Source: an uncultured Bryobacteraceae bacterium
Lineage (GTDB): Bacteria; Acidobacteriota; Terriglobia; Bryobacterales; Bryobacteraceae
Assembly (NCBI GenBank): GCA_937920635.1
Contig: CAKZUE010000054.1
Location: forward strand, 1-64,000
Length of the DNA stretch: 64,000 bases
Direction: 5' to 3'
Below, in pieces: positions 15,203-63,450 of this stretch. Position 1 is the first letter of the stretch. Each line of letters begins with the position of its first letter. The notes under the pieces are model-generated. The model saw only the letters and a program-made list of their open reading frames with translations. It did not search any database and was not told the DNA's origin. A program made the translations under genes and the position numbers.

Positions 15203-15279
15203 GCGCCCGTAGCTCAGCTGGATAGAGCGTTTGCCTCCGGAGCAAAAGGTCGCACGTTCGAATCGTGCCGGGCGTACCA
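15203..15279 (+). tRNA. tRNA-Arg (anticodon CCG)
   Basis: A 77-base cloverleaf with encoded CCA. The acceptor arms are GCGCCCG/CGGGCGT, with G-U at the first pair. The D arm is GCTC-AGCTGGATA-GAGC, the anticodon stem TTTGC/GCAAA with loop CTCCGGA gives anticodon CCG (reads CGG), the variable loop is AGGTC, and the T arm is GCACG-TTCGAAT-CGTGC. A possible -10 TATCAT lies at 15186-15191. A strong terminator follows. Confidence 0.95.
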
Positions 15280-21665: not shown

Positions 21666-23120
21666 ATGAAGAGATCTGAAACGGCGCTACTGTTTGCTTT
21701 TTTGCTGCCTGCTTTTTCAGCCGCCCAGAGCCAGTCGCCCGCGTCGCTGCCGCAACTTGTGCGCACGCGGGTTGTCGTGACCGACGCCAAGGGCGCGCCG
21801 GTGCTCGATGTGAAGGCGCAGGAATTCAGGATCACCGATCAGAACAAGACGCTGCCGCTGTCGTTCCTCCACCCTCCTTTCGCCTCGCATCCGGCGCCGG
21901 CGGCAGCGCCGGGCTGGGTGCTGAGCCGCGCTTCGAAGGAGTCGCCGCACACGGTGGCTGTGCTGTTCGACCTGTTCAATCTGATGCAGAACAACCGGCT
22001 CGATTCGTTCCAGCGGGTGGAAGCGGCGCTGCCGCGGCTGGCTTCGAGCAACCATGTGTACCTCTATCTGCTGAACCTGGACGGCACGCTGGAGCCGCTG
22101 GTGGCCGCGCAGGACGAGAAGGGCAACATCCTCGCGGCGCCTGGCGACTGGCACAAGAACGCTTCGCAACTGTTGCAGAAGTACGCGAAGAATCTCGGAC
22201 GGACGCGGCCGGCGGGCATTTTGCAGGAAGATGTGGTGAAGAAGACCTATGTGGCGCTGGAGGCGGTGGCCCGCCACCTGGGGGCGTTTCCGGGGGTGCG
22301 CGACCTGGTGTGGATCACCGACGGCGTGCCCAACGTTTTCGACACGCGCCAGCAGTGCTCGGGCGACTGGATGGAGTGCGCGCTGTATGTGCCGCATCTG
22401 GCCGTTACGCTGGACAACGCCGGGGTGGCGGTGCATCCGCTCTCCTATGGCATCCTGCGCCCGGACGTGACGCTGGCGATGGAGGACGTGGCCGGACTGA
22501 CGGCGGGCAAGACGTTTTACCGCGAGGATCTGGATTCGGTCATCGCGCAGTTGGGGCAGGCGGCGGCGGGATCGTATCTCCTGCTGGCGGCAGCGCCGGC
22601 GGACAACTGGGACAGCAAGTTCCACCGGCTGCGCGTGCAGTGCGAGCGGCGCGGCGTGAAGGTGCTGGCCCGGCAGCGCTATTACGCGTATCCGAGCCAG
22701 GGCCAGGTCCCCGCGCTCGAATTCGCCGCGATGAGCGCGCTGCTGAAGATTCCGGCGGATGCGCCGGAAGTGGATCTGCGCGGCAGCATCGCGCCGGGAT
22801 CGAAACCGGGGACCGCCATGGTGCGGATCCGCATCGATCCGATGGACCTGTTCACCATCGAGGACGCGGGGCACGCCGCCGGGCAGGTCTCGGTGATGTA
22901 CGCGCAATATGACGGACAGAACCTGCTCGGTTCGACGCAGCCGATGACCTTCAACATGCGGATGCCGCGGCAGCAGTTTTCCGACGCGGCCAAAGACGGG
23001 CTGCCATTCGATCAGGAGATCGCCGTGGATCCGCGCGCGAAATCGGTGCGGTTCCTGCTGTATGACCGTGGATCAAGGTTTCTGGGTTCAGTGACGCTGC
23101 CTGTGCCTGCGGCCAAATAA
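21666..23120 (+). CDS. VWFA-related acidobacterial domain protein (copy 1)
   Basis: A 484-residue secreted protein with a Sec signal (ALLFAFLLPAFSAAQ). Residues 32-65 (VRTRVVVTDAKGAPVLDVKAQEFRITDQNK in part) are the N-terminal strand region typical of the acidobacterial VWFA-related family. A VWA-like domain follows, with VAVLFDLFNLMQ as a degenerate MIDAS strand and DLVWITDGVPNVFD. The C-terminal third is beta-rich. The function of the family is unknown; adhesion or protein scaffolding at the cell surface is inference. It is followed 36 bases later by a CRTAC1 protein on the same strand. Confidence 0.85.
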   Translation: MKRSETALLFAFLLPAFSAAQSQSPASLPQLVRTRVVVTDAKGAPVLDVKAQEFRITDQNKTLPLSFLHPPFASHPAPAAAPGWVLSRASKESPHTVAVLFDLFNLMQNNRLDSFQRVEAALPRLASSNHVYLYLLNLDGTLEPLVAAQDEKGNILAAPGDWHKNASQLLQKYAKNLGRTRPAGILQEDVVKKTYVALEAVARHLGAFPGVRDLVWITDGVPNVFDTRQQCSGDWMECALYVPHLAVTLDNAGVAVHPLSYGILRPDVTLAMEDVAGLTAGKTFYREDLDSVIAQLGQAAAGSYLLLAAAPADNWDSKFHRLRVQCERRGVKVLARQRYYAYPSQGQVPALEFAAMSALLKIPADAPEVDLRGSIAPGSKPGTAMVRIRIDPMDLFTIEDAGHAAGQVSVMYAQYDGQNLLGSTQPMTFNMRMPRQQFSDAAKDGLPFDQEIAVDPRAKSVRFLLYDRGSRFLGSVTLPVPAAK

Positions 23121-26174: not shown

Positions 26175-28382
26175 TCACTGTGTCTGGGCCTTCATTTGCG
26201 GCACAACATACCGCACGCTGCCGGTGGCTTTCGCTTCACCCTGCGTGGCCGTAATGCGCAATTCACACAATCCGGGGCGCATGGCGGCGGAGACCATCAT
26301 CGGCACGGCGCCGGAGGGATCGGCCGGAGGCAATTCCGCCGACTGCGCTGCCAAGCGCTGGCCGTTGACAAAAAATTCCACCAGCAATTGCGGCTTTTCC
26401 GGCCTGCCTTTATCGGGATATACGACGAAATAGACGTGCGGTTGGGACACGTTATCGAGCGCCGGCGTGACCAGCGGAACCACGCGGCGGCCCTGATAGG
26501 ACAGAGGATCGCCGTTGCCGGCGGCCGTCTCTTCCACCCTCTGCACCAGCATGGGCGTGCTGACGGCCAGGCCCGCGGGCGGAGGCGGAACCTCGATTTC
26601 CAGAGCCTTGGCGCTGGCGCGCCCCCCGGCGCGGTCGAGCAGCGCCGTCTCCACCGTGTAATGGCCCGGCGGCAAGCTGAGCGATTGCGCATGGGTGATT
26701 CTGCTGGCCTGCATGGCCGGGAGATTATTCAGGGCGAACTCATACGGGGAATCGATGCTGAACCGCTCCACCACTTCGCCAGCGCCGTCTTTCACCAGTC
26801 CCACCAGCGCGACATGAGCCTTGGCTGAGCCGCGAGCCGCGTCCTGCGCGGTTGTGAGTTCTTTGCCCGGCAACTCGAACGCCAGCGCCACCTGGCGGCG
26901 GCCATGCTCCGTGCCGAAGGTGAACAGGCTGGACTGGAAGTCGAAATCGGCCGGTCGTGGATCTTTTCCGAGCAGCGCGAGCCCGACCACTTCGTGCGGC
27001 GCCAGCGCATCTCCGCCCGGCTTGGCGGGCAGCGCAAAGTAGCCGGTCCGGCTCTCGACGACGAGATCCTTGCGCGATGTCTTCACTTCGATGGTGCGCA
27101 GCCTGCCGTCGAGCTTCAAGTCGGCGGGCCGGTAGGCGACTTCGTATCGCGCCTCCATTTCCTCCAAAATGCGCCGGAACGGCTTGTTGAATTCGGAGGT
27201 GTTGGCCACGAGGAAGCCTCCGGTGCCTTCGGCCAGCTCCCGCAATGCAGCGCGCAGGTCCGAGGAGCGGACAGCGACCTCGAGCGCATCGTTCTGGCGG
27301 CTCTGCTGGCGGCGCTCCTGAAGCGAAGCGTTGAGGTTAGTTTGCGAACGGCTGACTTCGGCCACCTGCGCGAGAGCGATCTTGGCCGCCTGCGTGTCGG
27401 TGGTCTCGTCGAGCTCGGTGGGATCGAAGCTGTACACGGTCATGTTGGCGGCGTTCGCCCTGGCCATGAGCTTCCCGAACGCGTCCGGATCGCCCGTGGT
27501 GAGCAGTCCGCCGGAGATGAGCATGACGCTCTTGCGGCCCGGCAGTTGCGCGAGCTGGGAGACCATCGTATCGATCTGATCGAAGGCCCGGCTGCCCGTC
27601 ACATGGGCCATGTCCACGCGATCCCGCGCGCGGAAGCCGCGCGTGGTGTTGGCGGATGCGCTCATGGAAACCTCGGCGCGGGGCACGACCAATTTGCTCA
27701 CCTCGCCGCCGATGACGCGATCCGTGACAACGGCCGACTGCGCCGCCATGTTGACCAGCACGTCGACGGCGAACATGGTGGGATTGGCCGTCAGCACCGC
27801 AACGGAGGCCTGTTCGAAATCGAGAGCCCTGCCCGAGAAGGCCTGCTGGACGGCTGCGAGCAGATCCTGCTTCTGATCGGTGAAAGGCGAGACGGGGGTG
27901 AGGTAATCGTCCAGCGTGAAGACAGCAGCGAGCGTGTTCGGCGGAAGATCTTCCTTCAGGACCGATTCGGCCATGCGCAGCGCGCGGGTCCGGTTGACCG
28001 GATCCAGGTTATGGAAAACGAGGCACAGCAGGTTGACGGCGCGCAGCGGCATGGGCCGTGCCTTCTGGGCGGGCGAGGGGCCCGCTGCCGGCGCCGGCGC
28101 TTCCATGCGATCCGTTCTTCGCCGGTCCGTTCCTGCAAGGCGGAAAGCGCGGATGTCCTGTTTCACGCCGTTTTCGTAAATCTCGAGATCTTCCGGCTTC
28201 AGGTTGCGCACGATCCGGCCCCGCCGGTCGCGCACGACAACCTCCAGCAGCACCTCGGCCACCCCCGTGCGGATGACGGCCTGCGAGTCTTGCGACAGCG
28301 GCTGCGAGGCAACCGGCAGCGGAACGAAGGCAAGCGCGCACATACTGAAAGCAGCGGCATAGCTGCGCGTCGGCTTCTTCAT
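26175..28382 (-). CDS. VWFA-related acidobacterial domain protein (copy 2)
   Basis: A 735-residue secreted protein. A Sec signal (AAFSMCALAFVPLPVASQ) is followed by the family N-terminal strand block (EVVVRDRRGRIVRNLKPEDLEIYENG). A VWA-like domain has LPGRKSVMLISGGLLTTG as the conserved late strand. A C-terminal half of beta-sandwich-like segments includes TIEVKTSRKDLVVESRTGYFA, the YF-ending signature shared by the longer members. It stands at the head of a two-gene unit with a TPR protein and is divergent from the GT2/methyltransferase/GT-C operon. Function is unknown. Confidence 0.88.
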   Translation of the reverse strand: MKKPTRSYAAAFSMCALAFVPLPVASQPLSQDSQAVIRTGVAEVLLEVVVRDRRGRIVRNLKPEDLEIYENGVKQDIRAFRLAGTDRRRTDRMEAPAPAAGPSPAQKARPMPLRAVNLLCLVFHNLDPVNRTRALRMAESVLKEDLPPNTLAAVFTLDDYLTPVSPFTDQKQDLLAAVQQAFSGRALDFEQASVAVLTANPTMFAVDVLVNMAAQSAVVTDRVIGGEVSKLVVPRAEVSMSASANTTRGFRARDRVDMAHVTGSRAFDQIDTMVSQLAQLPGRKSVMLISGGLLTTGDPDAFGKLMARANAANMTVYSFDPTELDETTDTQAAKIALAQVAEVSRSQTNLNASLQERRQQSRQNDALEVAVRSSDLRAALRELAEGTGGFLVANTSEFNKPFRRILEEMEARYEVAYRPADLKLDGRLRTIEVKTSRKDLVVESRTGYFALPAKPGGDALAPHEVVGLALLGKDPRPADFDFQSSLFTFGTEHGRRQVALAFELPGKELTTAQDAARGSAKAHVALVGLVKDGAGEVVERFSIDSPYEFALNNLPAMQASRITHAQSLSLPPGHYTVETALLDRAGGRASAKALEIEVPPPPAGLAVSTPMLVQRVEETAAGNGDPLSYQGRRVVPLVTPALDNVSQPHVYFVVYPDKGRPEKPQLLVEFFVNGQRLAAQSAELPPADPSGAVPMMVSAAMRPGLCELRITATQGEAKATGSVRYVVPQMKAQTQ

Positions 28383-35345: not shown

Positions 35346-36254
35346 ATGTCCGAACACATTACCCATACAGCCGTGATGGATGACGGCGCCCGGCTTGCCA
35401 TCCACTCGGCTGACATTTGCCCGGACTTCAAGACAGTTTTGCGGGACAAGATCGATATCTGCCGCTACACGGCGATGACCCGCTCGGGCGATCTGTTCAC
35501 CGTGCGCCTGTTGCGGGATCTGCGAAGCCGCTGGCCGCAGCGGCGCGCCGGGGACTTGTCCGAGGAGAAGCTGGCCTTTGTGCTGGGCTGGCGATGCCAC
35601 CTCGCCGCCGACCGCACTTTCAAGCCTGTTTACCGGAAGCTCGACCCGGAATATTACCGGAAAGGCGATGACGAGCGCGGCGACGCCAGCGACGTATCCG
35701 TCTACCACGATGTGGTCGTCTTCCGCGAGGTCTATGACCACGGCCGCTCGGCCCCGTTCACTCCGTCCGCGCTCGATTTCCGTCTCGAGTCGCACCCCGC
35801 GTTTCGCTCCTTGCCAGTGCGTGCGCTGGAGCGGATCGTGCTGCCTCTCTGGCAGCAGCAACTGCTCCAGATTCAGTCCCGGCAGGATCCCGCGCGCTTC
35901 CAGACGGGACGGATTGACGTTCTGCGCTACGCCGCTGCATACCATGCACCGGACCCCGACAAGGTGCGCCGGTATATCTTCGAGCCGAACTTTTATAATC
36001 CGCGCGACCCATTGATCGCGCTGGCGCGTTCCATCCAGCGCGGGACTCCGGTCAGGGACGTCAGCCTGAAGGACGCACTGGCGGCGGCGCCGCACCAGAG
36101 CCAGTATGCGCAGGCGCTCGAGCGGGCTTACCGTTACCTGCACGCCGCCAGCGAGTATTTTCTGGGGCGGATCGACGAGCGCGAACTGCAACTCCGCTGC
36201 GACGTAGGCAAGCCCCACGTGCCTCCTGAACTTGACCCAAGGAGAAAATCATGA
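35346..36254 (+). CDS. Unrecognised protein with zinc-phospholipase-C-like His/Asp pattern
   Basis: A 302-residue protein without signal peptide. The start MSEHITHTAVMDDGARLAIH and the later FVLGWRCHLAADRTFKPVY (His-x-x-x-Asp in a helix) resemble the zinc-dependent phospholipase C/HD-like helical fold, in which several His and Asp bind metals. VSVYHDVVVFREVYDH adds further His/Asp. No family can be named with confidence. The ATG at 35346 was preferred to one 48 bases upstream. It overlaps the next gene by four bases (ATGA), so the two are coupled. The receptor-like chimera ends 25 bases upstream. Confidence 0.6.
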   Translation: MSEHITHTAVMDDGARLAIHSADICPDFKTVLRDKIDICRYTAMTRSGDLFTVRLLRDLRSRWPQRRAGDLSEEKLAFVLGWRCHLAADRTFKPVYRKLDPEYYRKGDDERGDASDVSVYHDVVVFREVYDHGRSAPFTPSALDFRLESHPAFRSLPVRALERIVLPLWQQQLLQIQSRQDPARFQTGRIDVLRYAAAYHAPDPDKVRRYIFEPNFYNPRDPLIALARSIQRGTPVRDVSLKDALAAAPHQSQYAQALERAYRYLHAASEYFLGRIDERELQLRCDVGKPHVPPELDPRRKS

Positions 36255-36985
36255 TCGCGAGAAGGGAGTTTCTTCAGTCCGCCGCGGCCCTGCCTGTGCT
36301 GATCCCCGGCGGCAGCGGCGATGCCGCGAGCGGACTGGAAGGGAGCCTGGCGCGGCTGATCTTTCTGGACGATGCAGCCTCGTTGGCGGCTTGCTCGCTG
36401 GCGGTTCCGAACTCCGTGGCTCATGCCATCTCCACGGAACGAGAGTCGTTTCTCGCAGCCGCTGTGCTGCAATCTCCACAGAACAAACCGGCCGCGGCAA
36501 TGGCGGTCCGGGCCGGACAGGCCGCAGCCGGGGCCTATGCGGCAATCGAGCCCGGGACGGCCGCGGAACGGCTTCAGTGGGACGCGCGGTTGCTGCGCGA
36601 ACTGGCCGCGCGCGGGGGGCCGGCCCGGCGCGAGCCCTCAAAACAGGAAATTGCCGATTTGTTTGATGTTCTGAGCCGCCGGGTGTTGATTGCCATTCAC
36701 ACCTACATCCCGGACGAGGCGGACGTGGAGGGCTGGATGGTCCGCCTGATCCGGCTTCACAAGGCGGTAGAGAGCTACTGGAACGCTCTGGCGGCAGCCT
36801 ATCTGCGTGAAGCAGCGCGCGCCGATGAGCGCTATGACCGCTCCGATGCCGTGATCCGGGCATCCTTCGCCCTGCGCCGGGGCCCGCTCGATCCGGGCGC
36901 GGTTGCCTCGGCACTGGAGACAAAGCCGCGCTGTGCATACAGCCGGGCGCTGAAAGAAGCGCTCGAGCGCATGCAGCGGCTTTGA
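36251..36985 (+). CDS. Exported hypothetical protein, partner of the upstream PLC-like gene
   Basis: A 244-residue protein with a Tat-like or Sec signal (ARREFLQSAAALPVLIPGG). The mature part is almost wholly helical and Ala-rich, with one conspicuous stretch RRVLIAIHTYIPDEADVEGW and a charged C-terminus. No family was recognised. It overlaps the upstream zinc-PLC-like gene by four bases and so is likely to be made with it in fixed ratio. It ends 85 bases before the convergent VWFA copy 3 gene. The pair looks like a small unit of unknown function. Confidence 0.6.
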   Translation: MIARREFLQSAAALPVLIPGGSGDAASGLEGSLARLIFLDDAASLAACSLAVPNSVAHAISTERESFLAAAVLQSPQNKPAAAMAVRAGQAAAGAYAAIEPGTAAERLQWDARLLRELAARGGPARREPSKQEIADLFDVLSRRVLIAIHTYIPDEADVEGWMVRLIRLHKAVESYWNALAAAYLREAARADERYDRSDAVIRASFALRRGPLDPGAVASALETKPRCAYSRALKEALERMQRL

Positions 36986-37070
36986 CGGCGACATCGACGC
37001 GCGGCCACAGACATACGCCAGCCGCGGCTTCCATTCGAGGAGCAAGCCTGGTCCGTCACGATCCGGCTGC

Positions 37071-39197
37071 TCAGCGGATCTCGACCACCGTCGTGCGTTC
37101 CGTCTGCATCTCGCCTTGTTTCGCCAGCACCCGCAGTTGGTACCGTCCCGGCGCCGTTGCCTGCTGCGGAAGGCGAAGGATGACCCAGCCGGGCCGGTTC
37201 TGGTCCCATTCCAGATCCGGCGGGGCTGCGGCTGCCACAAGGCGGTCCTCCCGCCACCAGGAGACGTTCAGACGCAACGGCTCCGCGGAGAGAGGAGCGA
37301 GTTGATAGCGGATCAGAATCCGGGATTCATCTTTCGCCACTTGCCCCAGCTCCGGCACCGCGGCCTGCCTGCCGAAGCAGAGCGGATCGGCCTCATCGCG
37401 GCAAGGTGCGGTTCGGGTGAACAACACGGGGGCGCCCAGCACAAGACCGCCCGCCGCGGAGGCCGTTTCCAGCTCTACCCGGCGCACCGCCATGCGCCGG
37501 CTGGCGGCGTCCATCGCTCCCAGCAGAACGTGGTACCGTCCCGTCGGCAAGACCACAAAGTCGTGGTACAGAATTCGCCCGGGGGGCAGGCGCCGGATCT
37601 GCTCCTCGGCCCCCTGGACTGGAATGCTTCGGTACAGGCGGCGGACGGTTCGGCCCTCCGAATCCCGGATTTGCGTGAGGAAAATCGCGGCAGCATATTG
37701 CTGCCCCGCAGGTCTCGCCGGGACGAATTGAAGCCGCTGTATCGGCACCTCGTACGACACCAACACGGAAGAGCCGCCAGGTGAAGGGAGGTCGAAGGCA
37801 TTGGCGCTGCACTCCAACTCTGCCGATGAGGACGTTTCCACCGAGGCGCGCAGGAACCGCATCTCCTCCGGCAGGAGCACGTCGTCTTCGCCCGCCGGCA
37901 CGGCCCAGTAGCCGGCGCGGCTGTGCACGCGCAAGCCCCTGCGTCTGACTCGCAGTTCCAGCCGCCGCCATTCGCCGTCCCACAGCCGGTTGGCTGGCCG
38001 GTATGTGGCAGTCCAGTAACCGTCGAAGTCTTCGAGAAGACCGGCGAGCCGCGTCTCCAGGCGGTTCGTACCGGAGATGAGGAAGCCGCCTGTTTCTTCA
38101 GCCAGCAGGCGAAGCCCCTCCTCCGCATTCGCCGTGGCAACCTTCTCCGGGTCTGGCGGCTCTCCGCCATCGGGGGCTGAGGTCACAATGCCCGCGTGAC
38201 CGTCACGGCCACGCAACGCGGCCAGCGTCTCGGCACTCGGCGGCACAATGCGCAACCCGCTGGCGTCCAGCGCGTAAATCGTCACAGAGGCGCGGTTCGC
38301 CATACCCGTGACCGCCCGGAACAGGTGATCCAGTTCGAATCTGCGCAGTCCATCGGAAAAGAAAACGACCGACTTGCGGCCCGGGACATTTCGGAGAGCG
38401 CCCGTCAGGGCCAGCAGCGACCCCAATTGCCGCGTCCCCTGAAGCTGCCGGTCGAATTCCTCGGCCCTTCGATTCAGCGTAGCGAGCCGTGCGTCGGCGG
38501 CTTTCCATGCGGTTTCCTCCCGGCCGTGCGCACCGAAGAAGGCAAGTTGCTTGCCTGGCTGATCCGCCTCCACGCCATATGCCAAGCCGGCGGCCCCTGC
38601 AGCTCTCCGGATGGCGGCAATCACGGCTTGCGGCGCGGAGGTGAAATCCAGCCACCAATTCAGCCGGGGCTGGAGTCCCGCGACTGCGAAAAACATCGAG
38701 CCCTCCGGAACCTGACGCACCAGTTCGGCGGCGGCGTCCGCGGCGCGCTTCCGGGCCTCCGCCCCCATAGAATCGAAAGCCAGCACGACCAGGCGCGGGT
38801 TCGCCGCATGCACATCGCCGGTCTTCCGGACAATATCGCTTCTCTCTGCCGTGAAGCCCCCGGGCGGAATCAGCGCCTGGATCTCCTGCCGAACGCCGTC
38901 CTCCAGGAGGACTACATCCTCCTTCTTCAAATCGCGAACCAGCCGACCGCCCCTCGTCCGCACCACGAAATCCACGGATACTTCTTCTGCTGTCACGCGC
39001 AGGGGCGGAGGCGCCTCCTGAGCAGCGCAGGTCAGAATGCAGGAATCCGGGCAGACTGCAAACAATGAAAAGATCAAACATGCCGCGCCGGGAAACGCCT
39101 TGCGCCCGCTCTGACGAGTTCGGCTGGAATCAGAAGGCTCGAATACGCCCGGCAATCGCCTCACACTTTTCTTTGGCTTGATGGCCAATCCATGCAT
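37071..39197 (-). CDS. VWFA-related acidobacterial domain protein (copy 3)
   Basis: A 708-residue secreted protein. Its export signal is unusual: the hydrophobic stretch (AACLIFSLFAVC) begins only at residue 37, after a basic region. The family block DFVVRTRGGRLVRDLKKEDVVLLEDG follows, then a VWA-like domain with VVLAFDSMGAEA and VPGRKSVVFFSDGLRRF, and a beta-rich C-terminal half. The first in-frame ATG (39197) overlaps the thioredoxin-like gene by 68 bases; a GTG eleven codons further on is an alternative. It is the third gene of a minus-strand unit after a Cys-rich peptide and a thioredoxin-fold gene. Base use is less GC-rich than the surroundings. Confidence 0.83.
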   Translation of the reverse strand: MHGLAIKPKKSVRRLPGVFEPSDSSRTRQSGRKAFPGAACLIFSLFAVCPDSCILTCAAQEAPPPLRVTAEEVSVDFVVRTRGGRLVRDLKKEDVVLLEDGVRQEIQALIPPGGFTAERSDIVRKTGDVHAANPRLVVLAFDSMGAEARKRAADAAAELVRQVPEGSMFFAVAGLQPRLNWWLDFTSAPQAVIAAIRRAAGAAGLAYGVEADQPGKQLAFFGAHGREETAWKAADARLATLNRRAEEFDRQLQGTRQLGSLLALTGALRNVPGRKSVVFFSDGLRRFELDHLFRAVTGMANRASVTIYALDASGLRIVPPSAETLAALRGRDGHAGIVTSAPDGGEPPDPEKVATANAEEGLRLLAEETGGFLISGTNRLETRLAGLLEDFDGYWTATYRPANRLWDGEWRRLELRVRRRGLRVHSRAGYWAVPAGEDDVLLPEEMRFLRASVETSSSAELECSANAFDLPSPGGSSVLVSYEVPIQRLQFVPARPAGQQYAAAIFLTQIRDSEGRTVRRLYRSIPVQGAEEQIRRLPPGRILYHDFVVLPTGRYHVLLGAMDAASRRMAVRRVELETASAAGGLVLGAPVLFTRTAPCRDEADPLCFGRQAAVPELGQVAKDESRILIRYQLAPLSAEPLRLNVSWWREDRLVAAAAPPDLEWDQNRPGWVILRLPQQATAPGRYQLRVLAKQGEMQTERTTVVEIR

Positions 39198-39657
39198 TTC
39201 GGATCACCCCGTTGGGACCCAGGATGAGAACAGTTGGCACGCGATCGAGGCCGGCCTCGTGGAAGTCGATCTTTCTCGTCGCCTGAACCTGCAAATTGTA
39301 ACCCTCCACGAACTCCTCCGCCTTCCCGTCGTGCGCGGGAAAAACGGCTATCGCTGGATACCGTTTCTTATGCCACACTGCAAGAATCTGGCTGTAAAGG
39401 GGGACATTGGCTTTGCAGAATGGGCAATCGGAACGCAGCGCCAGGATGAGGAACGGACCATCGTCTCCGTGGAATTCATTCTGTAAAATGGATCGCCAAA
39501 ACCCGGCTGTGGCTTGTTTCCCTGAAGCTGCACAACGAGAGTGCGATCCAAGGTAACGCTGGAACAGAGACGCCGAAAGCACGAGACACAAAACGATCAA
39601 TGCAATATTCGCAGCCAGCTCGGCCACTTTCCGGATTCCGGTAAAGCCCAGATTCAT
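39130..39657 (-). CDS. Membrane-anchored thioredoxin-fold (TlpA/MauD-like) oxidoreductase
   Basis: A 175-residue protein with one N-terminal membrane helix (residues 12-34, VAELAANIALIVLCLVLSASLF), so the catalytic domain faces the periplasm. The active site is SDCPFCKANVPLY with Cys78-Pro-Phe-Cys81. The fold continues through VPTVLILGPNGVIRNAWIG, where the cis-Pro loop is RVPTV. The class reduces or forms disulphides of specific exported partners. The Cys-rich exported protein ends 12 bases upstream, which makes it the obvious client. The downstream VWFA gene overlaps its end. Confidence 0.85.
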   Translation of the reverse strand: MNLGFTGIRKVAELAANIALIVLCLVLSASLFQRYLGSHSRCAASGKQATAGFWRSILQNEFHGDDGPFLILALRSDCPFCKANVPLYSQILAVWHKKRYPAIAVFPAHDGKAEEFVEGYNLQVQATRKIDFHEAGLDRVPTVLILGPNGVIRNAWIGHQAKEKCEAIAGRIRAF

Positions 39658-39669
39658 TCGCCGGTCAAC

Positions 39670-39996
39670 CTACCAACATTCTCCAGATAGAAAGTCTTCC
39701 GGCGGCAATGTGAACTTGCACGATTCACCCTCCGGACGGCACGTGCCGGTGGCGAAAACGGTCTGGCAAGTCCAACCGCCAGACCCGGAAGAACAACCCG
39801 GAGGAAGAGTGTCGCGGCAGTATCCCGGGTACGGGTTGGCCGGCGGACCTCCACCACAATAAATGTCGCCGAAATAGATCGCTCCCACACCCGTGCAATT
39901 CGCCGGGCATGAGCGGGCCGCAGATTGTTCTGGAAGAAGTACGAAATAAAACGCAACCGAAAGCACAAAAACAAAAGTCACAGTTCGCAAGTTCAT
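39670..39996 (-). CDS. Secreted Cys-rich protein
   Basis: A 108-residue protein with a Sec signal (FVFVLSVAFYFVLLPEQSAA, cleavage likely after Ala27) and a mature part of about 80 residues carrying nine Cys. The pattern includes SCPANC, YCGGG, YCRD, PGCSSG and ESCKF, with many Gly, Pro and Ser. No known family was recognised. The odd Cys count means one is left unpaired, exchanged, or linked to a partner. A single-gene ORF could be longer, but the ATG at 39996 gives a good signal peptide. It directly precedes a membrane thioredoxin-fold gene, which could form or isomerise its disulphides. Confidence 0.7.
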   Translation of the reverse strand: MNLRTVTFVFVLSVAFYFVLLPEQSAARSCPANCTGVGAIYFGDIYCGGGPPANPYPGYCRDTLPPGCSSGSGGWTCQTVFATGTCRPEGESCKFTLPPEDFLSGECW

Positions 39997-40404
39997 GGTG
40001 GTAGCGTACCCCCCCCCGAGAATCCTGTCAATGAGTCCTGACCAAGTCAGCGTCAGGGGGGTGAGGCGACGGGTCTGACACGCGGTGGCTGGATTCGAGC
40101 GAGAATTCACATTGACCATCAGGAGCCTGCGGCCGTGACTCCAGCATGCTGGACTGTCGCGCGAATTCTTGCAATCCCGCCCCCGAGCTGAGATCACCGC
40201 CGCCGCGCACGAGCACAAGGCCGAGCACCATAAGCCCGGCTTTCCGCGCTGGAAACAGCCGGTGGTGGCGCAGTTGGCCCATCTGAGCCGGGCACAGCCC
40301 TATGGGCAATTGAGTGTGGACAGGCCGCCAGCGAAGGCAGCACGCAGCGCCCCGGGCTGCAAGCGGCGCCGAAGCGCCCCGCTGCCTGCCGGCCCTGATG
40401 GCAC
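39997..40404. other. Non-coding spacer with promoter and G9 tract; no gene seen
   Basis: About 400 bases between the Cys-rich gene and the TPR gene at 40.4 kb, both on the minus strand. Near its left edge lie the candidate promoter with the G9 tract. A perfect 12-base palindrome (CCAGCATGCTGG) lies at 40141-40152. Short open frames exist on both strands, but none has a recognisable product or a ribosome-binding site. I see nothing else in it. Confidence 0.5.
40003..40031 (-). promoter_or_regulatory. Candidate promoter with G9 homopolymer in the spacer, upstream of the Cys-rich gene
   Basis: On the minus strand TTGACA (40026-40031) is followed by a 17-base spacer that ends in nine consecutive G, then TACGCT (40003-40008; 3 of 6 matches to the -10 consensus). 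The ATG lies only six bases further, so the transcript would be leaderless or nearly so. The -10 is weak and the call is tentative. Confidence 0.4.
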
Positions 40405-41547
40405 TCACTGCCGCCGGGCGCCGGGCTGGTAGGCGGGCAGGGCGAGCGGGTCTTCGATTTCCTTGAGGCGCTGGAACTCGGCCAGTTCGCGCGCGGCGTC
40501 CTCTTTGCGTCCGGCGCGGCGGTAAGCCTGCGACAGGTAGTAATGGATCTGCGCATTGCCCTGCACGAGCCGCGCGGCCTTTTCCAGCCGCGGGATCGCC
40601 TGATCCAGACGGCCGGCGGTCAGATGCGCCTGCCCGATGCTGGCATGGCAGATCCAGCGGTAGCTGACCGGCACGAGCTGAAGCGCGCGCTCCAGATTCT
40701 TCAACGCCTCATCAGGCGCGCCCTGCCGGATCTGGAGATTGGCCAGCATCAGCAGCGCGGGCCAGTGATCGGGAGTGTTGCGGACTTCCTCGAGAAAGCC
40801 CTCCAGCGCCGCTTTCGGATCGCTCTCCATCAGATACAGCGCGCGCGCGTTGTGTACGCCGGGGGCTTTCGGAAAGCGGCGCACGAGTTCGTCATAGCCT
40901 TTCAGCGCTTCCTCAGGACGGCCGGTGCCACCAGCCCAGGCGGCCTTGCCGGCGAGCAGCACGATCTCGCGCCGCTCGGGCGAAAGCGAGCCGGGATCGC
41001 GGTCCACGGCGAGGGCGGCCAGCCCCATGATCTCTTCGATCGCCGGATGGCTGACGTTGCGCTTCGACAACGGATACATCTTGCCCATCGCCTCGTCGAA
41101 GCGTCCTTCCGTAATCAGGAGGCGGGCTGCGCGCACGCGGACGGCCACTTCGAAGGCGAGATTCGCGCCGAGGCCGAGCTGCTCGCCCCTGGCGATGTCG
41201 GCCAGCGCCTGCTCGGGGTTGTCGAGCTCGGCTTCGCACATGCCGAGCAGCGCCCACGCGGTGCCAAAGCGCGGCGCGAGCTCCAGCCCTTTGCGCAGCG
41301 CGTGCGTGGCCTCGGCGTAGCGCTCCAACCGGTGCAGCGCGGCTCCCATATAGAGCCAGCCTTCCACCCAGGCGGGGCGGATCTTCAGGGCCTCGCGGTA
41401 GAGTTCGACGGCTTCCGCAGGGTTGGCGTCGAGTACGGCTTCGGCGCGGCGGGCGAGCTGTTCGAACCGCTCGAACTGCGACGCCTGCGCCGCCGCCACG
41501 GGCGCGAGCGCCGCCGCCAAAATCAGAACCACCCCGATTTGTTTCAT
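40405..41547 (-). CDS. Exported TPR-repeat protein
   Basis: A 380-residue protein with a Sec signal (GVVLILAAALAPVAAAQ) and about eight TPR units, among them AVELYREALKIRPAWVEGWLYMGAAL, ALRKGLELAPRFGTAWALLGM and ALKNLERALQLVP. The last units (NAQIHYYLSQAYRRAGRKEDAARELAEF) match the usual C-terminal capping pattern. Two ATGs are adjacent; the one at 41547 was chosen because GGAG then lies five bases upstream. It is divergent from a second TPR gene with about 70 bases between the starts. Likely a periplasmic scaffold. Confidence 0.86.
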   Translation of the reverse strand: MKQIGVVLILAAALAPVAAAQASQFERFEQLARRAEAVLDANPAEAVELYREALKIRPAWVEGWLYMGAALHRLERYAEATHALRKGLELAPRFGTAWALLGMCEAELDNPEQALADIARGEQLGLGANLAFEVAVRVRAARLLITEGRFDEAMGKMYPLSKRNVSHPAIEEIMGLAALAVDRDPGSLSPERREIVLLAGKAAWAGGTGRPEEALKGYDELVRRFPKAPGVHNARALYLMESDPKAALEGFLEEVRNTPDHWPALLMLANLQIRQGAPDEALKNLERALQLVPVSYRWICHASIGQAHLTAGRLDQAIPRLEKAARLVQGNAQIHYYLSQAYRRAGRKEDAARELAEFQRLKEIEDPLALPAYQPGARRQ

Positions 41548-41615
41548 CATTCTCCGTCCCCCGCCCTGCCCGCCTGCCACCCACTTTCTTCATAGCACAG
41601 CGGGCGGCCGCTATC

Positions 41616-62581: not shown

Positions 62582-63450
62582 TGGCGGCGCTGGCAGGGGC
62601 GGCGCAGGAGCCGGTGTTCCGCGTCGATGTGCGGCTGGTGCGGATCCTGGCGACGGTGCGGGACGCGCAGGGAGCGCTGGCGGGCGGTCTGGAACGGGAC
62701 GATTTCCGGGTGACGGACAACGGCGTGGAGCAGGAGATTGCGGTGTTCGAGCGGCAGTCGGCGCAGCCGTTGTCGGTGGCGGTGCTGATCGACCGCAGCC
62801 GTTCGACGCAGCGGGAGCGGGCGTACGAGCTGTCGGCGCTGCAACGGTTTTTCCGGGCGCTGGTGCGGGAGGGAAACGCGGAAGACACAGCGGCGCTGTA
62901 TTCGTTCAATTTCGAGGTGGCGCTGCAGGCGGACTACACGCGGCGGCTGGACCGTCTGGAGGCGGCGCTGCGGCGGCTGAAGAGCGAAGGGGCGACGGCG
63001 ATGTACGACGCGATCTATCTGGCGTCGCGCGATCTGGAACGGCGGGGCGGGCGGCGGGTGGCGGTGGTGGTGAGCGACGGGGCGGACACGATCAGCAAGA
63101 CGACGTTTCACGAGGCGCTGGAGGCGCTGCACCGCGCTGACGCGGTGCTCTATGCGCTGCTGCTGGTGCCGGTGAAAGGGGAGGCGGGGAGGAACCTGCG
63201 GGGGGAAAACGCATTGATCCAGTTTTGTTCCGGCACCGGAGGGAAGATGTTTTATCCGGCGGCGCCGCGCGCGCTGGACGAGGCGTTTGCGGAGATCCTG
63301 CGCGACCTGCGGACGCAGTACCTGATCGGCTACTACCCGAAGAACGTGCCGCCCTCGAAAGAGCGTTTTCACCGGGTGAGCGTGACGGTGAAACGGGACG
63401 GCTACACGGTCTCGGCAAGGACGGGATATTTCGCCGATGAGATACGATAG
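62554..63450 (+). CDS. VWFA-related acidobacterial domain protein (copy 4)
   Basis: A 298-residue short member of the family. A weak signal (GLIDRRQVMAALAGAAQ) is followed by the N-terminal strand block (VDVRLVRILATVRDAQGALAGGLERDDFRVTDNG in part) and a VWA domain with SVAVLIDRSRSTQRE, a good DxSxS MIDAS motif. RRVAVVVSDGADTISK follows, then the terminal VTVKRDGYTVSARTGYFA signature. The start is uncertain; GTG 62554 has GGAGG nearby, while ATG 62539 is also in frame. It overlaps the MoaD-MoaE gene, so it may share the mRNA. Function unknown. Confidence 0.83.
   Translation: MGLIDRRQVMAALAGAAQEPVFRVDVRLVRILATVRDAQGALAGGLERDDFRVTDNGVEQEIAVFERQSAQPLSVAVLIDRSRSTQRERAYELSALQRFFRALVREGNAEDTAALYSFNFEVALQADYTRRLDRLEAALRRLKSEGATAMYDAIYLASRDLERRGGRRVAVVVSDGADTISKTTFHEALEALHRADAVLYALLLVPVKGEAGRNLRGENALIQFCSGTGGKMFYPAAPRALDEAFAEILRDLRTQYLIGYYPKNVPPSKERFHRVSVTVKRDGYTVSARTGYFADEIR

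Follow-up and report, generated by a model that had tools for sequence, protein, structure and literature searches.

Disulfide-rich peptides, prized as scaffolds, have been known for the most part from animals, plants and fungi, and from some Gram-positive bacteriocins. In the pediocin PA-1 operon, the exported thioredoxin-like CxxC protein PedC is thought to form the disulfides of the operon's small peptide (PMC4919988). For sublancin 168 (Bacillus SP-beta), the peptide operon includes an oxidoreductase gene (BdbA/BdbB), and BdbB forms the two disulfides of the peptide (PMC6391423). With PedC and BdbB there is precedent for the maturation of a disulfide peptide by a thiol-disulfide enzyme from its own operon. 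A comparable arrangement was found in a 64,000-nt stretch of DNA from an uncultured Bryobacteraceae bacterium of the phylum Acidobacteriota (assembly GCA_937920635.1, contig CAKZUE010000054.1, positions 1 to 64,000), which is called the window in the following. Its minus strand contains a trio of genes for a small secreted protein rich in cysteine (Cys), a membrane-anchored thioredoxin-fold protein and a VWFA-related protein (Table 1). We consider it likely that the first two genes are an instance of an Acidobacteriota-wide module, in which an anchored thioredoxin-fold enzyme folds a neighbouring exported disulfide-rich protein, the cargo. The basis was computed, namely the recurrence of the pair, the even Cys number of the cargoes, purifying selection on close cargoes, the fold and anchor of the enzyme, and the presence or absence of the genes as a block. 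No description of such a module was found in the open literature searched, with most subscription journals outside the search.

Like PedC/BrcD, the window has an exported thioredoxin-like CxxC protein that adjoins a small Cys-containing secreted peptide. However, the PedC/BrcD profile TIGR01295 did not match the window enzyme at E 0.01, and one of 18 aligned relatives was matched weakly (E 0.0071). In addition, the module has a Sec-type signal instead of an ATP-binding cassette (ABC)-exported leader, its cargoes contain up to about 40 Cys, no immunity gene was recognised, and it occurs in another phylum. The trio contains neither an exporter nor an immunity gene, and immunity genes were not searched for. 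BdbB is a DsbB-like multi-helix membrane protein, in contrast to the single-helix thioredoxin of the module, and sublancin is a glycosylated peptide with a dedicated exporter. By analogy, the module may work like the PedC and BdbB systems with proteins of other families; membership in either system is not demonstrated. The best structural neighbours of the window enzyme are ResA, CcmG (DsbE) and MPT53, which share its thioredoxin-like fold, but only about 10-22% of its residues (rows listed), and the partner genes of the module encode Cys-rich exported proteins. The best NCBIfam row for the enzyme, ResA (NF002854), scored 20 bits against a cut-off of 170, so that it is not a member. MauD of methylamine utilisation is anchored, has a thioredoxin fold and assists an exported protein rich in disulfides. 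The window enzyme differs from it by the absence of a family match, its cargo is unrelated, and an amine dehydrogenase was not seen in an uncontrolled search. If the module is real, an abundant, poorly understood phylum would hold dozens of unrelated disulfide-rich families, each beside a likely folding enzyme. Such families could be found with one profile and tested by co-expression, and a first handle on possible roles of the paralogue families TIGR03436 (VWFA) and TIGR03435/DUF3738 would be gained.

Recurrence of the Gene Pair in Acidobacteriota

Relatives were picked by the similarity of the thioredoxin-fold enzyme alone, and the gene neighbourhoods were read afterwards. Within the order, a search with the window enzyme matched 33 of 257 genomes at E 1e-4, and 18 relatives were aligned (alignment A1); a repeat search with A1 matched 167 of the 257 genomes at E 1e-4, including many remote thioredoxins. 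In a sample of 396 genomes of the phylum, 35 were matched at E 1e-10, the window's own genome included. Neighbourhoods were examined for part of the matches listed, taken roughly best first, and additionally for 40 weak matches of the order as controls. The filter for cargoes made no use of similarity, but demanded a signal-like N-terminus, at least six Cys, and at least 4.5% Cys after the hydrophobic segment. A pair was counted when a cargo gene lay on the same strand within 1.6 kb, and loci with both 1.6-kb flanks present were called full-flank. The order counts include the window and the 18 seed rows, while matches below 25 bits were excluded (three of 112 in the order set).

A cargo accompanied nearly all of the strongest full-flank matches of the order, i.e., 21 of 22 at >=100 bits, followed by 9/13 at 60-100 bits, 5/11 at 45-60 bits, and 7/28 at 25-45 bits. 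For the same four bit classes of the phylum sample the values were 11/17, 2/3, 9/13, and 1/1. When the flank condition was dropped, 30/35, 10/21, 6/14, and 9/39 matches of the order and 11/18, 5/6, 10/16, and 2/2 of the phylum sample had a cargo. Cys-rich open reading frames (ORFs) on the opposite strand were rare (2, 0, 0, and 2 in the order and 3, 0, 2, and 0 in the phylum sample by bit class; 9 of 151 in total). The background of the filter away from any thioredoxin match amounted to four hits in 328 kb and five in 113 kb, and none of 38 random anchor ORFs had a cargo-like neighbour. A cargo within 1 kb was present at 40 of 56 matches with at least 60 bits versus 6 of 39 matches with 25-45 bits (Fisher, p = 8e-8, to be taken as a guide only). 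The pairing of Cys-rich and thioredoxin-fold genes is not due to chance. A preliminary description of this locus, made from the sequence, would have been contradicted by Cys-rich genes that never co-occur with a thioredoxin-fold gene; this is clearly not the case, as the pairing recurs across the phylum.

The genome of the window itself contains two further modules (G000:C24, locus L066; G000:C64, locus L137). In both, a thioredoxin-fold gene with a longer frame is preceded by the gene of a cargo of 75-79 residues with six Cys, and TonB-C and carboxypeptidase-regulatory genes lie near. The cargo of C64 has relatives in the congener G145. No relative was found in the genome_contigs collection with the window thioredoxin as query, and plasmid records contained no match to the enzyme of locus L204, one Pyrinomonadaceae relative.

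Diversity and Conservation of the Cargoes

The 77 cargoes fell into 47 BLAST groups, 32 of which were singletons. None of the 75 cargoes scanned against Pfam and NCBIfam belonged to a curated family; the NCBIfam scan yielded one chance-like row, and the Pfam scan four weak rows, three defensin-like (best E 7e-4) and one conotoxin (E 0.009). A forced alignment revealed no common motif beyond scattered Cys columns, with a mean column identity of 6%. Judged by their sequences, some cargoes look knottin-like with CCS..C repeats, some look helical with a CxxxC spacing, and some look Gly-Cys rich. Among the 64 cargoes no longer than 135 residues, 59 have an even number of Cys, as do 39 of 43 when each group is represented by one member (p = 3e-8), which is what fully paired disulfides predict. 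Six close comparisons of cargoes, two of them between tandem copies, gave ratios of non-synonymous to synonymous substitution rates (dN/dS) of 0.06-0.30, and most Cys positions were kept (18/18, 8/8, 17/19, 7/7, 8/8, and 6/7). Therefore, the compared cargoes are real genes under purifying selection.

The relation between enzyme and cargo was analyzed for 56 modules with an intact enzyme N-terminus, using enzyme pairs that BLAST aligned over 70%. At an enzyme identity of at least 50% all six pairs had cargoes of the same group, compared to 11 of 25 at 40-50%, 12 of 280 at 30-40%, and 5 of 475 below 30%. This pattern suggests that the enzyme is kept while the cargo turns over, as expected of a specific pairing with turnover. 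The loci L234, L228, L200, L050, L225, L236, L063, and L135 each have two related cargoes close to a single enzyme, which points to local duplication. At three other loci the cargo continues into a C-terminal domain in which Asp/Asn-Gly motifs recur (L052 2987-4180, L126 2456-3634, L207 5239-6345), which we take to resemble the Ca-binding parts of large RTX proteins.

The window cargo has a hydrophobic N-terminus, with a probable signal peptide at about residues 1-27, and all nine Cys are positioned after the hydrophobic segment. Its gene is the only ORF of the window that passes the filter for exported Cys-rich proteins. The protein belongs to no family in Pfam, NCBIfam or PADLOC, and no convincing relative was found in the 257 genomes of the order. 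Weak matches in 15 other genomes of this set (E 4e-4 to 0.01) were not accepted as relatives; at the two loci inspected (L005 and L013) the match runs antisense to a larger ORF, and the other 13 loci were not inspected. With its nine Cys, the window cargo is one of the four odd-number exceptions among the 43 group representatives.

The Thioredoxin-Fold Enzyme

The structure of the window enzyme was predicted with AlphaFold2 on the 18-row alignment A1 (mean predicted local distance difference test score, pLDDT, 86.9) and consists of a long N-terminal helix (residues 5-37) and a thioredoxin-like domain. MPT53, a ResA-like protein, StoA, DsbE, and CcmG were the top rows of Foldseek. VIA-align gave a Z of 12.6 to 3gl3 (root-mean-square deviation 2.7, 124 aligned residues), and of 12.2 to CcmG (1kng) and MPT53 (1lu4); among the best 50 rows, Z ranged from 12.6 to 10.1 with about 110-132 aligned residues. 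C78, C81, and P141, the presumed cis-Pro, are invariant across the 18 rows. The fold, the CxxC motif and the presumed cis-Pro place the enzyme in the thioredoxin-fold superfamily. Within it no curated family claims the enzyme, and nothing scored above the Pfam cut-off.

Among 80 enzymes with at least 60 bits the most frequent redox motifs are CHFC (18), CRFC (9), and CRYC (9), and six enzymes lack a motif in the aligned part. Thr directly precedes the presumed cis-Pro in 48 of the 80. A CxxC motif that ends in an aromatic residue together with Thr-cisPro resembles the disulfide isomerases DsbC and DsbG. A hydrophobic N-terminal segment was present in all 63 enzymes of at least 60 bits with an intact N-terminus.

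The Trio and Its Presence or Absence as a Block

All three minus-strand frames of the preliminary description, i.e., the 108-residue protein with nine Cys, the CPFC thioredoxin-fold protein and the VWFA protein, were recovered at their places (Table 1). The coordinates also bear out the tight packing that had been described: 12 bases separate the stop codon of the Cys-rich gene from the start of the thioredoxin-fold gene, and the frames of the latter and of the VWFA gene overlap by 68 bases.

Table 1. Features of the three-gene locus, in positions of the 64,000-nt window.
Feature	Position	Strand	Basis and remarks
Secreted Cys-rich gene, putative cargo	39670-39996	-	ORF and translation; ATG start, 108 aa
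Thioredoxin-fold gene, membrane-anchored, putative dedicated thiol-disulfide oxidoreductase/isomerase	39130-39657	-	175 aa; AlphaFold2, Foldseek, VIA-align
Codons of the CPFC redox motif, residues 78-81	39415-39426	-	Read from sequence; both Cys invariant in A1 (18 rows)
N-terminal hydrophobic helix, residues 5-37, predicted membrane anchor	39547-39645	-	AlphaFold2 helix
VWFA-related gene (TIGR03436)	37071-39197	-	708 aa counted from first ATG; start codon uncertain
VWFA domain of this gene	37902-39008	-	TIGR03436 match
Block with all three genes, missing between the same flanking genes in two congeners	36986-40404	.	tblastn and blastn

The trio is flanked by a gene at 36251-36985 and a TPR gene at 40405-41580, and it is all that was recognised in the 3.4 kb between them. 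In the congener G145 (L258) the flanking genes are 81% and 91% identical to those of the window, and their coding ends are 15 bp apart. In G142 (L257) the identities are 64% over 100 residues and 91%, and the distance is 20 bp; both gaps run between aligned coding ends, with stop codons counted in the gap. The congeners G143 and G144 keep only the TPR side and are thus uninformative. Orthologs of the trio genes at the identity level of the flanking genes were not seen in the four congeners (G142-G145). Because the flanking genes are adjacent in two congeners, the trio came or went as one block, with gain and loss not separated.

The preliminary description had remarked on a base use lower in G+C than that of the flanking genes, as if the genes had been acquired. 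This holds for the Cys-rich gene (55.4% G+C) and the thioredoxin-fold gene (54.2%), but not for the VWFA gene, which with 65.5% equals the window (65.8%). The 33 ORFs of the window with at least 250 codons have a mean of 65.5% (standard deviation 2.6, minimum 59.3%), and against this background the low G+C of the pair speaks for gain rather than loss, although module genes in general tend to lie 3-4 points below their surroundings. The empty site in two congeners thus backs acquisition as a unit, with the reservations that it does not tell gain from loss and that the G+C is low in just two of the three genes.

The ends of the block showed no clear repeats in searches for 9-mers and imperfect repeats: no 9-mer is shared, directly or inverted, between 36961-37080 and 40001-40420, and the imperfect repeat nearest to both ends (37141-37155 with 40417-40431; 15 nt, 87%) was taken as chance. 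No sigma-70-like promoter was found, and two terminator-like sites were present versus 3.8 expected. The window contains one tRNA gene, at 15203.

Proposed Mechanism and Alternative Explanations

According to the proposed mechanism, the cargo would be exported by Sec, and the enzyme, tethered in the inner membrane, would expose its CxxC domain to the periplasm. There it would form or reshuffle the disulfides of the cargo, before the latter is installed in the envelope or set free from it. Between lineages the enzyme family would persist, while the cargo would be replaced almost entirely. A variable secreted accessory protein (VWFA, DUF3738, TonB-C, carboxypeptidase-regulatory, or a 245-residue beta protein) may retain the folded cargo at the envelope, present it or let it go. 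In the window the whole trio, which might share a single transcript, would have arrived or left together as one block. The export and folding half of this mechanism is proposed because of the comparative evidence. An exported disulfide-rich factor with its own oxidoreductase, as the preliminary description had envisaged, fits the recurrent pairing and the mostly even Cys numbers, while the redox direction and the contact between enzyme and cargo we infer. A further-reaching proposal, which we regard as possible rather than probable, is a phylum-wide uncatalogued system for diversified disulfide-rich peptides, with one conserved anchored enzyme per locus and one of dozens of unrelated cargoes; such small cassettes would come and go, and the cargoes would act outside the cell as effectors or signals.

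A number of results weigh against the folding module. The cargo filter is home-made and calls signal peptides by a simple hydrophobicity rule; it also passed the long ORF L222 5079-6368, which was not among the cargoes scanned and which its CxxCH motifs reveal as a multihaem cytochrome and thus as a false positive (L222 has another cargo). The matches are not independent, being related and in part fragments of a single gene, so that the p values are only guides. As a quarter of the weak full-flank matches of the order are still paired, the edge of the family is not sharp. The one strong failure of the order, L051, contains an ORF with 34 Cys that was lost by the start-codon rule. Six of the 17 strong full-flank matches of the phylum sample failed: the Cys-rich ORF sits on the opposite strand in L201 and L208, ORFs with 44 and 14 Cys lack a recognised signal in L210 and L216, respectively, an ORF with nine Cys is 2.2 kb off in L205, and L211 has nothing. 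The window pair itself is not typical, with CPFC as redox motif, Val instead of Thr before the presumed cis-Pro, and an odd Cys number; the cargo is an orphan, and its own conservation is thus not demonstrable. The AlphaFold2 model of this cargo alone was uninformative (pLDDT 46.9). An oxidising partner of the enzyme was not recognised in searches for VKOR and MauE. VKOR had no match in the window genome, nor in any of the six searched genomes of its family, while it was matched in both searched genomes of the family f23. A MauE-domain match was present in all eight of these genomes, and the MauE-domain protein is a candidate for the electron partner; in the window genome its single gene (open frame of 335 residues) is sited away from the trio. 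Lastly, the fold neighbours are not of one kind, since reductases (ResA, CcmG) are among them, and the redox direction may thus be either.

This last point leads to a different explanation, according to which the enzyme carries electrons or acts as a reductase, and the thiols that it reduces belong to Cys-rich proteins with a role as redox sinks, metal binders or sensors. The proximity of the enzyme to ResA, CcmG/DsbE, and MPT53 in sequence and fold and the odd Cys number of the window cargo would agree with it. However, the strong bias for even Cys numbers fits paired disulfides better than free thiols, and the cargoes share no motif beyond scattered Cys columns, which makes a reductase improbable in our view. 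The preliminary description had been reminded of MauD, so that the enzyme would be a MauD homologue and the cargo would resemble the small disulfide-rich subunit of amine dehydrogenase. Indeed, a membrane-anchored thioredoxin-fold protein adjoins a Cys-rich exported protein, and the genome encodes the MauE-domain protein elsewhere. Nevertheless, this kinship is hardly credible: the MauD profile TIGR02661 matched only one of the 18 rows of A1 (E 0.0049) and not the window enzyme at E 0.01, the cargoes are mutually unrelated, and the amine dehydrogenase light chain (PF02975) was unmatched in the window genome, in a search that gave no match in the control set either. As a special case of the folding module, the cargoes might be antagonistic, bacteriocin- or defensin-like effectors, with the enzyme as maturation factor and an arms race as the source of their diversity. 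The extreme number of cargo groups, the weak likeness of a few cargoes to defensin-like and conotoxin models and the presence or absence of the block between congeners would be in line with it, and both pediocin and sublancin have a thiol-disulfide enzyme of their own (PMC4919988, PMC6391423). On the other hand, no immunity gene was recognised (for lack of a shared profile, no search aimed at such genes was made), the trio contains no dedicated peptidase-ABC exporter and had no match among the defence-system models of PADLOC, and close cargo pairs are under purifying selection. Furthermore, a Sec-type signal in a diderm would call for a further outer-membrane step, and the weak Pfam matches may only mirror the Cys content. 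Effectors are therefore not very likely as an explanation, though likelier than a reductase.

The VWFA Gene and Other Companions

The folding module as preferred here consists of two genes, and the VWFA gene might be an accidental neighbour. The VWFA protein of the trio is a TIGR03436 member (175.1 bits versus a curated cut-off of 81.25), and the window genome contains 18 TIGR03436 domains above the cut-off. For 17 of these copies no family thioredoxin was found within the approximately 1.5 kb of flank examined. The copies most similar to the window VWFA (best long match 36% identical) are not module-linked ones, but copies of the same genus without a thioredoxin neighbour, and the G+C of the window VWFA gene matches the flanks and not the pair. 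In a survey of companions at 72 module matches and 30 controls, the latter being weak matches (25-45 bits) without cargo (nine weak matches with cargo were omitted), a home-made profile detected VWFA on the same strand within 2.5 kb at 8/72 modules versus 0/30 controls (Fisher, p = 0.10), with one of the eight (L059) resting on this profile without confirmation. In contrast, the density of 20-32 matches per genome lets 1.5-1.9% be expected per locus (P 1e-5 to 8e-5, overstated, as one family supplies four of the eight loci), VWFA above the curated cut-off follows the cargo gene on the same strand at L127, L203, L204, L212, L213, L216, and L217, with L216 added from outside the survey, and the VWFA gene of the window lies inside the block that is absent from two congeners. 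Five of these seven loci belong to the family f23; the metagenome-assembled genome of Pyrinomonadaceae bacterium SSF31 (JAIBCB010000002.1, L240), which is 99% identical to the f23 member G602, has the genes in the sequence enzyme, 18-Cys cargo, VWFA, VWFA. Taken together, an accidental neighbourhood is a serious possibility that we only slightly disfavor, and VWFA appears to be a recurrent, but optional companion of modules. Display or binding of the cargo by VWFA, as proposed in the preliminary description, is a conjecture: accessory genes of other kinds occur at other modules, and module-linked copies are not the closest relatives of the window VWFA.

Three further TIGR03436 domains lie inside the window (21753-22688, +; 27033-28277, -; 62611-63438, +) and form, together with that of the trio, a local cluster. 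DxSxS, which we take to be the usual metal motif of VWFA domains, is replaced by DSMGA in the window copy; only about 4-5 of the 18 copies in the genome have the motif by a crude pattern. A relative of the window VWFA in the congener G144 (G144:C1:3233879-3235799) is broken into pieces with in-frame stops.

Other companions were found by the same survey, again in comparison to the 30 controls. DUF3738 was near 12/72 modules versus 0/30 controls (p = 0.017), TonB-C near 10/72 versus 2/30, carboxypeptidase-regulatory near 10/72 versus 1/30, MacB/FtsX permeases near 9/72 versus 0/30 (p = 0.055), the 245-residue beta protein (beta-245) near 8/72 versus 0/30, and AraC-like near 4/72 versus 1/30. 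All of them were rejected as an obligate third partner, because none is common. DUF3738/TIGR03435, an acidobacterial paralogue family, was seen near the modules L119, L120, L121, L122, L125, L128, L131, L133, L134, L140, and L149. A family of proteins of about 610-620 residues, two members of which were scanned without a match in Pfam or NCBIfam, is encoded near a few modules (L151 2301-4169, L152 3083-4912, L064 1762-2862, and L206); its N-terminal part presumably resembles PqqD-like peptide-binding domains.

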